Of a stretch of DNA of 64,000 bases, positions 4,038 through 7,353 are shown piece by piece. Positions within the stretch are counted from its first letter, which is position 1; the number at the start of each line of letters is the position of its first letter. A program made the translations under genes and the position numbers. The DNA lies in contig NZ_PISP01000001.1 of NCBI RefSeq assembly GCF_002834295.1, forward strand, positions 1,426,001 to 1,490,000, written 5' to 3'. Source of the DNA: Rhodohalobacter barkolensis (GTDB lineage: Bacteria > Bacteroidota > Rhodothermia > Balneolales > Balneolaceae). The notes under the pieces are model-generated. The model made no database searches, was not told the DNA's origin, and saw nothing but the letters and a program-made list of their open reading frames with translations.

Positions 4038-6077
4038 ATGAAAGTCACATCATACGCAAAAGGAAACTGGATCGAAAAAGGAAAAGAGACCGACCTGATC
4101 AGCGCTGTAAACGGAAAAAAAGTCGCAACTCTGATTGAAGGCAACCTCGACTACAAAGGAATGTGCGAATATGCACGAACCGTGGGTGGACCAAAACTCC
4201 GGGAGATGACGATCCACCAGCGTGCGTTTAAGATCAAATTCCTTGGCCAATACCTGATGAAACACAAGGAGGAGTTTTACGAACTCTCTACACACACCGG
4301 TGCTACCCGCCGCGACTCCTGGATCGATATTGAAGGTGGAATCGGATCAATCTTTACGCTTTCCAGTAAGGCTCGGATAGAACTTTCGGATCTACCTTTC
4401 CACGTAGAGGGTGGTGTTGAAAGACTATCAAGAGGCGGAACATTCATTGGTCAGCACATTTGCGTACCCAAGCACGGTGTGGCTGTTCATATCAACGCGT
4501 TTAACTTCCCGGTTTGGGGAATGCTTGAAAAATTTGCCCCTGCATTCATTGCCGGTGTTCCATCCATTATCAAACCGTCACCGATGGGTTCATTTTTGGC
4601 TCATGCCGTTTTCAAAAAGATGATCGAATCCGGACTGCTGCCGGAAGGTTCTGTTCAATTTATCGCTGCGGATATTCCGGGCGACCTGCTCGATCATCTG
4701 AAGAGTCAAGATTCCGTTTCATTTACCGGATCTGCATTTACCGGCCGTAAACTGAAGGCTCATCCGAATATCATACAAAACAGCATTCCGTTTAATCTTG
4801 AGGCAGATTCCCTCAACTGCTCCATCCTGGGACCTGATGTGACTCCCGATATGGAAGAATTTGGGCTCTTTGTGAAAGAGGTGGCCAACGAGATGACGGT
4901 AAAAACCGGACAGAAATGTACAGCTATCCGCAGAACCATTATTCCAAAAGATTTGGTGGATGATGTTGCTGAAGCGCTCAAAATCAGACTTCAAAAAACC
5001 ACCATCGGTGACCCGGCTTCCGAGGATACCCGAATGGGCCCGCTAGCCAGCTCGGAACAAGCAACAAGATTTGGTGAACAGCTTCAAAAATTGATAGATG
5101 TCACAGATACCATCTATACCACAGGAGGTGACGAAAAAGATGCTTTTACCTCGCCAAAAGTTCTGCTTTGCAAAACGCCGGTTACTGTGGATGAAGTGCA
5201 TACCATTGAGGCATTCGGTCCGGTCACAACACTCCTGCCCTACGAAAATATTGATGAGGCAATTACAATTGCCAATAAAGCGGACGGATCGCTGGTCGGT
5301 TCTCTTTTTACCAACGATGATGATGTAGCGCGCGTTATTACGCTCGGCTGCGCACCTTACCACGGTCGATTTATGATTATCAACCGGCACTCTGCCAAAG
5401 AGTCGACCGGACACGGTTCTCCGATGCCTCATATGGTTCACGGCGGACCCGGTCATGCCGGAGGCGGTGAAGAGCTTGGCGGTGCCCGGGCAGTACTGCA
5501 CAATATGCAGAGAGTTGCACTTCAGGGATCACCCACAACCATTATGAACATCGTTCAGCAGTATGTAAAAGGTGCAGAAACAAAGGAATCGGAAGTTCAT
5601 CCATTCAAAAAGTATTTTGAGGATCTGACTGTCGGTGAAGCACTCACAACTCACAGAAGAACCGTTACAGAAGCCGATATTGTCAATTTTGGCGGATTAA
5701 GCGGCGACCACTTTTATGCTCACTTTGATGATGTAGCCGCCAAAGATTCTCTTTTCGGGAAACGTGTGGCACACGGATATTTCGTCCTATCTGCAGCTGC
5801 GGGAATGTTTGTTCACCCGGCTCCCGGTCCGGTAATGCTCAACTACGGACTTGAAGATTTGAGGTTTGTAGCGCCGGTCTATCCCGGAGATACCATCCAG
5901 GCCAAGCTGATCGTGAAAAAGAAAACGGTTCGCCAAAAACGGGAAACCGATAAAGAACCCTACGGAATGGTTTGGTTTGATGTACAGGTTACCAACCAGA
6001 ATGAAGAACTGGTTGCAGAGTATACCATCCTGACCTTAGTAAAACGGCAGAATCGATTGGATATGGATTTGGACTGA
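4038..6077 (+). CDS. paaZ: Bifunctional oxepin-CoA hydrolase / 3-oxo-5,6-dehydrosuberyl-CoA semialdehyde dehydrogenase PaaZ
   Basis: 679 residues, the usual length of PaaZ. Residues 1 to about 520 form an NAD(P)+-dependent aldehyde dehydrogenase domain, with the general base in NLEADS (E255) and the catalytic cysteine in TGQKCTAIRR (C294), each one residue off the E. coli positions. Residues about 545-670 form an R-specific enoyl-CoA hydratase (MaoC/hotdog) domain with the GDHFYAH Asp/His dyad. By established biochemistry it opens the oxepin-CoA ring and oxidises the resulting aldehyde in the aerobic phenylacetate pathway. The other paa genes lie 55 kb away (59.5-63.7 kb), so this copy is detached from its pathway. 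Repeat DNA lies on both sides of the gene. Identification is very secure. Confidence 0.97.
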   Translation: MKVTSYAKGNWIEKGKETDLISAVNGKKVATLIEGNLDYKGMCEYARTVGGPKLREMTIHQRAFKIKFLGQYLMKHKEEFYELSTHTGATRRDSWIDIEGGIGSIFTLSSKARIELSDLPFHVEGGVERLSRGGTFIGQHICVPKHGVAVHINAFNFPVWGMLEKFAPAFIAGVPSIIKPSPMGSFLAHAVFKKMIESGLLPEGSVQFIAADIPGDLLDHLKSQDSVSFTGSAFTGRKLKAHPNIIQNSIPFNLEADSLNCSILGPDVTPDMEEFGLFVKEVANEMTVKTGQKCTAIRRTIIPKDLVDDVAEALKIRLQKTTIGDPASEDTRMGPLASSEQATRFGEQLQKLIDVTDTIYTTGGDEKDAFTSPKVLLCKTPVTVDEVHTIEAFGPVTTLLPYENIDEAITIANKADGSLVGSLFTNDDDVARVITLGCAPYHGRFMIINRHSAKESTGHGSPMPHMVHGGPGHAGGGEELGGARAVLHNMQRVALQGSPTTIMNIVQQYVKGAETKESEVHPFKKYFEDLTVGEALTTHRRTVTEADIVNFGGLSGDHFYAHFDDVAAKDSLFGKRVAHGYFVLSAAAGMFVHPAPGPVMLNYGLEDLRFVAPVYPGDTIQAKLIVKKKTVRQKRETDKEPYGMVWFDVQVTNQNEELVAEYTILTLVKRQNRLDMDLD

Positions 6078-6087
6078 AGATCAAATT

Positions 6088-6120
6088 ATTCGTGGCACGA
6101 CTCAAAGTCGTGCCACGAAT
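6088..6120 (+). terminator. Perfect 15-bp hairpin after paaZ
   Basis: ATTCGTGGCACGACT (6088-6102), loop CAA, then AGTCGTGCCACGAAT (6106-6120), a perfect inverted repeat ten bases after the paaZ stop. No T-run follows, so termination is likely but the hairpin could also be a REP-like palindrome. Confidence 0.55.
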
Positions 6121-6135
6121 AGGAATCACTCAACT

Positions 6136-6222
6136 AAAAAAATGCCCATCAACCGATGGGCATCATATACGAGTCTACCTGCGCTGAAGCTTTGGAAGAC
6201 AGGCCGGTCATTTATGGCCGGT
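6136..6222 (-). ncRNA. Candidate structured small RNA, copy A, ending in an intrinsic terminator
   Basis: Read leftward, this unit forms three stems in order. Stem 1 is CCGGCCATAAATGACCGG. Stem 2 is GTCT-x-CC paired with GG-x-AGAC, enclosing a GC-TTCA-GC stem. Stem 3 is ATGCCCATC-GGTT-GATGGGCAT (6142-6163), followed by a run of seven T. The same 85 bases occur again at 6505-6589 with only two differences. The last stem plus T-run is a textbook Rho-independent terminator. Whether it is a separate RNA or a mobile repeat is unknown; no known RNA family was recognised. Confidence 0.45.
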
Positions 6223-6284
6223 ATACCAAACAGTACATAGTTTCGTCTTGTCGTCAGCCCCGTTATACTAAGATTTCCTTTGGA

Positions 6285-6420
6285 CGCCTCAATATAGCTT
6301 CTCTCTTTCAAACATCTCCCTCTGTTCGGCGGTGATTTTATCCTGTCTCTATTTCCCGGGGTTAAAACCCCGGGCTATTATCTGATCACCCCTGACAGGG
6401 TTATTCTTCCTGAGATAATT
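6285..6420. repeat. Truncated relative of the composite palindromic elements (E5)
   Basis: It has the left arm only: CGCCTCAATAT (from 6285) and CCCTCTGTTCGGCGG (6318-6332). Two palindromes follow: CCCGGGGTTAAAACCCCGGG (6355-6374) and CCCT-GAC-AGGG (about 6390-6400). No right arm (GCCGAACAGAG) is found before the ppa gene. Confidence 0.6.
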
Positions 6421-6504
6421 TTTGAAATACATTAATGCTTTAACAACAATCCGGAATGCCTCGAAGCCGTATCCTCAATTTTTTGCCACACCGTTCCAAC
6501 AAAC

Positions 6505-6589
6505 AAAAATGCCCATCAACCGATGGGCATCACATACGAGTCTACCTGCGCTGAAGCTTTGGAAGACAGGCCGGTCATTCATGGCCGGT
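6505..6589 (-). ncRNA. Candidate structured small RNA, copy B
   Basis: Second copy of the three-stem unit, 367 bases from copy A, with changes only at two positions, neither of which breaks a stem. Its terminator stem is ATGCCCATC (6509-6517) with GATGGGCAT (6522-6530), followed on the leftward strand by TTTTTGTTTG. It lies downstream of ppa on the same strand, so it could be an independent RNA or a processed 3' end. A 14-bp inverted repeat sits just upstream of it (6596-6691). Confidence 0.45.
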
Positions 6590-6595
6590 TTATCA

Positions 6596-6691
6596 GACAT
6601 GGTATCTCTGTTAGTATCCGATAGAAAAATACAGCTCCTAACTAAGATTACCTCAAATTTAGTCACCGCATAATCATAGAGATACCATGTC
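6596..6691. repeat. 14-bp perfect inverted repeat enclosing 68 bases
   Basis: GACATGGTATCTCT (6596-6609) and AGAGATACCATGTC (6678-6691) are exact inverted copies. The enclosed AT-rich segment has no gene. It is absent from the equivalent place next to copy A, as if inserted. Confidence 0.6.
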
Positions 6692-6709
6692 TTGACTAAA
6701 AGAAATAAT

Positions 6710-6731
6710 GAACGGGGCTGACGACCCGTTC
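6710..6731 (-). terminator. Probable terminator of ppa
   Basis: On the leftward strand GAACGGG, an 8-base loop and CCCGTTC are followed by ATTATTTCTTTT. It starts about 11 bases after the ppa stop codon. The loop sequence is repeated near 6250-6263. Confidence 0.55.
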
Positions 6732-6741
6732 TACAATCAAC

Positions 6742-7353
6742 CTACTCGCCAAACATATCCTGATAATCGGCCATGGAGGCTTCAATCACTTTCTCAGCAT
6801 ATTCCCGGTCATATACACGATCTACAAATACATCGGAGTCTTTACCGGGAATTAGTTTGTAGGTACCAAAGTAGTGACGCAAACGCTCAACAATAACTTC
6901 AGGCAAATCAGAAACATCTTTCACATCTTTGTAATATCGGTCGTTATCCAAAACAGAGATGATCTTATCATCTGCTTCACCGTTATCAATCATGTGGAGA
7001 CCGCCAATTACACGGGCAGTTAAAATCACCTCGGCACGGTCAATCGGACGCTCACTTAGTACACAAATATCGAGCGGATCGCCGTCACCTTTGTCGGTAT
7101 GTTCTGAAAGTCCGCCAATGCGCTCACCACAGTACGTTCTCGGAATAAATCCATAGAGTGATGGCGGCATGGATGAACTGCGCTGCGGGCGATCCACACG
7201 CATGTAACCGGTCAGTTTATCAACTTCGTATTTAATTGCATCAAATGATGTTACCTCAATAAAGGCGTTTACAACTTGCGGTGATCCTTCGCCAACTTCC
7301 AGGCCGTGCCATGGATGCGGGCGCCATCGATAAAAAGGGTTTGGGAAATTCAC
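6742..7353 (-). CDS. ppa: Inorganic pyrophosphatase
   Basis: 203 residues, a soluble family I pyrophosphatase that hydrolyses PPi to two phosphates and so drives nucleic-acid synthesis and acyl-CoA ligase reactions. The metal-binding signature appears as [12 protein letters not shown] (about residues 89-100), followed by D-x-K-I (ADDKI) near 127 and HYFGTYK near 160, all expected for the family. The N-terminus [19 protein letters not shown] is longer than in the E. coli enzyme and Trp/His-rich, as in a subgroup found in Bacteroidota and eukaryotes. It lies 60 bases downstream of prfA on the same strand, so the two may share a transcript. A likely terminator follows at 6710-6731. Confidence 0.95.

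Follow-up and report, generated by a model that had tools for sequence, protein, structure and literature searches.

The cyanobacterial SDR elements, described by Elhai and co-workers in 2008, are reportedly hairpins of 21–27 nt that are embedded in other repeats, nested, confined to one lineage, and recently mobile. The palindromic elements of Rickettsia sit in frame inside genes and are longer than 30 nt. REP and REPIN elements with their RAYT (TnpA-REP) enzymes consist of short dispersed palindromes, also arranged as inverted pairs, with a tag at the hairpin foot and with REPs flanking the gene of a Y1 HUH transposase, as set out in the parts of two accounts that define them (PMC3116915, PMC6006769). 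The first of these treats single REPs, where it discusses them, as immobile remnants for which no excision was found (PMC3116915). REP dimers, or REPs inside longer palindromes, were noted in three species, in a section of a further report (section 7) that holds neither orthologous empty sites nor placement at another REP's tag/hairpin joint (PMC3733652). Among Y1 TnpA proteins, the signature Y...Q..HH marks subclass 1.2, whose members are generally without associated terminal structures and low in copy number, as the survey's treatment of that subclass has it (PMC6006769).

The locus studied here lies in a 64,000-nt stretch of the Rhodohalobacter barkolensis genome, hereafter the window. Two near-identical units occupy a 664-bp gap between converging genes; one gene reads into the units, and the other arrives from the opposite side. 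The features are as follows, with + for the forward and − for the leftward strand.

4038..6077, +: converging gene, second conserved neighbor; putative bifunctional PaaZ-like aldehyde dehydrogenase/hydratase, judged by its sequence
6138..6222, −: composite unit copy 1 (outer hairpin, 30-nt palindrome, tag, and terminator stem), from copy comparison and orthologous loci
6141..6164, −: inner stem of the half-REPIN, intrinsic-terminator-like, then a T-run, copy 1, from the terminator scan
6170..6173, +: tag CGAG, which reads CTCG leftward, at the base of the hairpins in copy 1
6174..6203, −: inserted 30-nt palindrome, copy 1, CCTGTCTTCCAAAGCTTCAGCGCAGGTAGA, missing from the orthologous unit in G009 and in G019; matched by the covariance model at G000:C1:1432172-1432203
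6204..6221, −: REP-like outer hairpin, copy 1, CCGGCCATAAATGACCGG, dispersed in the genome, with no control matches
6505..6589, −: composite unit copy 2, from copy comparison and orthologous loci
6508..6531, −: terminator-like inner stem, copy 2, from the terminator scan
6537..6540, +: tag CGAG, copy 2
6541..6570, −: inserted 30-nt palindrome, copy 2, identical in sequence to that of copy 1, from orthologous loci and the covariance model
6571..6588, −: REP-like outer hairpin, copy 2, CCGGCCATGAATGACCGG, dispersed in the genome
6742..7353, −: upstream gene, the conserved neighbor used to locate orthologous loci; presumably inorganic pyrophosphatase-like, judged by its sequence

The architecture agrees closely with the first-pass annotation, which had described two near-identical copies 367 bases apart with three stems each. 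The copies (6138–6232 and 6505–6599) are 95% identical over 95 nt on the same strand, and the two differences it placed outside the stems are found within 6138–6222 at position 6166, in the linker, and at position 6213, in the apical loop of the outer hairpin; a third difference, at 6137, falls just beyond the 85-base unit. Single-strand folds of the two copies (−32.3 and −30.2 kcal/mol; z = −2.4 and −1.9) reproduce the three stems, including the mismatched middle one, which has a T.T mismatch. The leftward terminator with its T-run was recovered as intrinsic-terminator-like sites at 6164–6141 and 6531–6508, in a region that holds six such sites on its two strands versus 0.5 expected in shuffles. 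The statement that the flanking DNA is not conserved applies between the two copies, whose flanks differ save for one 13-mer, but not to the comparison with congeners, where both the DNA upstream of copy 2 and that downstream of copy 1 are conserved.

Read leftward, each unit comprises the hairpin CCGGCCATRAATGACCGG, the 30-nt palindrome, CTCGTATRTGAT, and a stem GATGCCCATC/GATGGGCATT followed by a T-run that scores as an intrinsic terminator. This last stem, preserved with its T-run in all three genomes compared (G000, the home genome, together with G009 and G019), probably ends the transcript of the upstream gene. Two further inverted repeats lie nearby. An inverted repeat AGACATGGTATCTC/GAGATACCATGTCT around TTTGAGGTAATCTTAGTTAGGAGC (6595..6692), which looks like another repeat family, stands beside the unit in G000, G009, and partly G019. 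A perfect 16-bp inverted repeat, TATTCGTGGCACGACT (6087–6121), forms a strong hairpin (z = −7.4) and is found at the same place in G019.

A blastn search of the home genome with the unit gave nine matches, and its core word AAGCTTYAGCGCAGG occurs exactly ten times there; an exact pattern scan of the genome collection returned nine stretches, all in Balneolaceae assemblies. In the home genome and its congeners, some copies consist of the middle stem with no outer parts, and others of the outer parts with no middle stem. The unit is a composite. The outer hairpin is present at 29 places in the home genome (13 exact, 16 with one mismatch), with none for a reversed-pattern control; at 20 of them the tag CTCG or a close variant comes next, and the other nine are untagged. 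At these 20 tagged repeats the joint between hairpin and tag is empty in 12, occupied by the 30-nt palindrome in six, and occupied by an unrelated 27-nt palindrome in two, counts that would miss insertions within the outer hairpin itself because the search required a nearly intact hairpin. The 27-nt palindrome, CCAACC...GGTTGG, was observed at this joint in L299 and L301 (G000:C1:1007489 and 1023156) and nowhere else in the home genome at up to three mismatches.

Full inverted pairs of the outer part, with a spacer, lie beside a transposase gene in three congeners (G009, G012, and G022) and also at G000:C6:179415; the window copies are halves. The outer parts (hairpin CCGGCCATRAATGACCGG, the CTCGTATA tag side, and the terminator stem) are half of a REP/REPIN-like repeat. 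They share with REPs a short palindrome in many dispersed copies and, at three loci of the genus, the flanking of a Y1 transposase gene. The canonical REP tetranucleotide GTAG/GTGG 5′ of the hairpin is replaced here by CGAG, so we call the outer part REP-like and not a canonical REP. The tag in the REP/REPIN and RAYT system is GT[AG]G in the passages that describe it (PMC3116915, PMC6006769), in contrast to the CGAG or CRAG-like form found here.

A different palindrome, CCTGYCTTCCRAAGCTTCAGCGCAGGYAGR, 30 nt long, makes up the middle stem. A covariance model built from 25 of its forms matched 132 times, at E values up to 0.05, in 16 of the 28 genomes of the genus (home genome included), with 0 to 24 matches per genome. 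Across the phylum, 13 of 296 genomes had matches at E up to 1e-4, those outside the family being single and weak. The retrieved loci, which cover part of the 132 matches, hold 118 copies that resolve into 54 flank contexts, a count that leaves out copies with less than 40 nt of flank, repeated 20+20-nt flanks, and matches with more than eight errors. Host sequences vary: in G005 the palindrome is flanked by ATCCTGAA and CTTGATTCAGGAT, in G020 it occupies the loop of the palindrome CCCAGGGC...GCCCTGGG, in G013 it lies within ATCCCGCATCAAG/TGCGGGAT, and in G016 it stands beside further copies of itself. One context holds 21 copies and another nine, and much of the spread may be passive, because many copies travel within a larger repeat.

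The junctions were examined with one member per context, as were the stem and tag statistics. No target duplication was seen around the palindrome copies. The motif CTYR, a pattern chosen after viewing the flanks, stands immediately to the right in 11 of 54 contexts (background, 1.3%) and to the left in three. In seven of 54 contexts the flanks pair into a stem, 6 bp or longer, that closes on the junction; 1.3 such contexts were expected, and 2 of 5000 shuffles reached seven. A looser measure of flank pairing, which counts straddling pairs in the minimum-energy fold, gave no excess (6.24 vs. 6.11). Two copies were observed inside genes, a likeness to the longer Rickettsia elements. At L036 636–2186 (G000:C3:494836) the palindrome and neighboring repeat sequence lie in frame within a histidine kinase gene, at about residue 273; the HisKA match there ends at residue 225 and covers profile positions 3–38 of 66. 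In a genome of another family (L226, G178:C41:16479-16510) a copy adds ten residues, LPAEAAAQAG, in frame to a protein that, judged by the residues flanking the insert, probably resembles a type I restriction S subunit.

Comparison with the orthologous gap reveals the unit lacking the palindrome. The upstream gene is present in 23 of the 28 genus genomes, counting the home genome, and the second gene falls within the retrieved downstream stretch in two of the 22 others, G009 and G019 (in L075 that stretch is 128 bp only). Each of these two holds one unit that lacks exactly 30 nt and is alignable on both sides. The upstream gene is 86% identical to its home counterpart in G009 and 83% in G019. 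The palindromes of the two home copies share one private form; the sequence preceding copy 2 matches G009 and G019, and that following copy 1 matches G019. The home pair may have arisen by duplication after the insertion, or two older units may have been made alike.

Two other comparisons differ in the same way. Near the transposase gene of G009 (an assembly listed with 9% contamination) lie two REPINs, one of 154 nt with the palindrome and one of 124 nt without it; if the 30 nt are disregarded, 122 of 124 positions agree. At the orthologous site G000:C2:170948, the home genome reads CCCCCTTCGA, 30 nt, and then AGGGGG, and G009 reads CCCCCTTCGAAGGGGGG; here the palindrome splits the hairpin CCCCCTTCGAAGGGGG, which is whole in G009. 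These three comparisons give clean empty sites, differing by the 30 nt alone or nearly so and showing no target duplication, the pattern expected of an SDR-type element. Single REPs, by contrast, are held immobile in the passage of the REP study that concerns them (PMC3116915). A search for orthologues of ten other home sites, begun from 13 coding segments of which ten gave at least one region and three gave none, found the palindrome in none of 16 regions; this is weak evidence, because the majority of these regions either miss a larger block or can be aligned on a single side, and do not qualify as clean empty sites.

The outer repeat is tied to a transposase. REPIN pairs of this make flank a Y1_Tnp (Pfam) gene in G009, G012, and G022, and when the G009 protein served as query, the top three of 41 matches were the loci with the outer hairpin in their flanks. 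These three form one group in a transposase tree of 33 rows, built without one duplicate gene and without fragments shorter than 135 residues (support 77/95; 78% of bootstrap trees). The motif Y...Q..HH occurs in 28 of the 41 matches, the three hairpin-flanked ones included. The short G009 protein, a PF01797 match at E = 2.1e-28, carries it as YIKRQKIHH, which places it with subclass 1.2. That subclass is reported, in the entry that covers it, to be without associated structures (PMC6006769), a difference from the REP/REPIN and RAYT systems and from the three members here, which have REP-like pairs in their flanks.

The home genome has 17 PF01797 matches, and the outer hairpin was found in none of the 13 transposase stretches retrieved from it; several of its Y1 transposase genes have flanking palindromes of their own, for example GTGCCGTAGGCAC or CAGGCTGAAGGCCTG. 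For the 30-nt palindrome no cis-linked transposase was found: the examined transposase flanks are free of it except in G009:C168, where it lies inside the REPIN, and a comparison by eye of the transposase and palindrome lists yielded that one pair within 2 kb. We assign the outer element to a small Y1 (HUH) transposase carrying the subclass 1.2 signature, an enzyme that may also drive movement of the palindrome.

We consider it likely that the unit is half of a REP/REPIN-like element with a 30-nt palindrome inserted between its outer hairpin and its tag, and that the palindrome is a dispersed hairpin element in its own right, most probably moving as a single strand. The first-pass annotation had proposed either a duplicated small-RNA gene or a terminator-bearing mobile repeat. 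The latter is supported, with the amendment that the repeat is a composite of two different ones. Were the unit instead a small-RNA gene, its three stems would make up an RNA with its own terminator and function, with which the preserved terminator stem, the stable fold, and some pair-keeping changes in the middle stem are consistent (in the better register, the score is matched by 3 of 500 shuffles). Pair-keeping is slight in the other register (39 of 500 shuffles), and compensatory changes do not discriminate here, because DNA palindromes also preserve pairing. No leftward promoter-like site appeared at 6050–6800, scored against the sigma-70 consensus only, and Rfam returned no family over the window at gathering score. 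The middle stem is missing from the orthologous units of two congeners as an exact 30-nt block, and relatives of the unit as well as the lone stem recur in many unrelated contexts, the stem also within reading frames. These observations leave a duplicated small-RNA gene highly improbable.

The difference between the genomes could also be read in reverse, with an ancestral palindrome lost from the relatives by precise deletion through slippage across the hairpin. Replication tends to delete palindromes, and the two home copies show that the locus has rearranged. Some sites, moreover, are old: a diverged copy is present both in the unit at G000:C6:114928 and in the corresponding G009 unit. Yet G009 is closer to the home genome than G019 is, and both are empty, so loss requires two events where one insertion on the home branch would suffice; the deletions must moreover have ended at the same joint as the 12 empty home repeats, and the 54 unrelated contexts are left unexplained. 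We regard such loss as unlikely and favor insertion. Unlikely, too, is the notion that the palindrome never moves alone and is a mere passenger of larger composite repeats that spread and recombine: runs of copies do share a host repeat in G005 and G020, and for some home sites G009 or G019 lacks an entire block of ~100 to 300 nt, but the three clean comparisons differ by 30 nt alone or nearly, and the host repeats differ between genomes.

Other leads were followed for the region. A permissive Rfam scan produced a weak Acido-Lenti-1-like match at 6355–6402 (E = 7e-4, below gathering score) in a CCCGGGG/CCCCGGG palindrome, a lead that was dropped when no such structures were found beside 19 transposase loci. 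An integron attC site, considered for the spacing of the copies, was set aside because the copies are dispersed singly. In the plasmid collection the terminator stem alone found short matches, at E = 0.8, and the phage collection gave none.

For the favored reading, a single-stranded insertion of the palindrome into a REP-like repeat, a route can be proposed. By analogy with REP and IS200/IS605 enzymes, as far as the survey's account of them extends, Y1 action would be expected at the CGAG tag that borders the base of the outer hairpin (PMC6006769). The palindrome sits exactly where the outer hairpin would otherwise stand, so that the tag borders its own base. Most likely it moves as a folded single-stranded hairpin, much as in IS200/IS605 or REP transposition, and becomes attached 3′ of a CRAG-like tag with no duplication of the target. 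CRAG-like tags would also be exposed in hairpin loops, and the palindrome's landing sites frequently lie within or next to other hairpins. In the window, it would have inserted into a REP at the end of the pyrophosphatase-like gene, the composite later being present twice.

A bolder version, which we put forward tentatively and with less than even confidence, is that the 30-nt hairpin transposes by itself, with neither partner nor gene, as a parasite of REPs. Subclass 1.2 Y1 transposases would insert it single-stranded at the tag/hairpin joints of other REPs and in hairpin loops, where it would take over the tag, be copied with its host repeat, and sometimes add ten residues in frame to a protein. 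The open-licence literature on REP, REPIN, and RAYT in Bacteroidetes and Balneola-type organisms yielded no account of this element. Compared by description, the cyanobacterial SDR elements differ from it in that here the hairpin is 30 nt long, belongs to another phylum, has a one-sided tag, and has a Y1 transposase linked to its host repeat.

The 30-nt hairpin may rank among the smallest known units of mobile DNA. With its clean empty sites and fixed insertion joint, it offers a small, testable system for the movement of the shortest repeats. The REP-like flanks of three members would extend the description of Y1 subclass 1.2, which, reported without associated structures, is now linked to REP-like elements.
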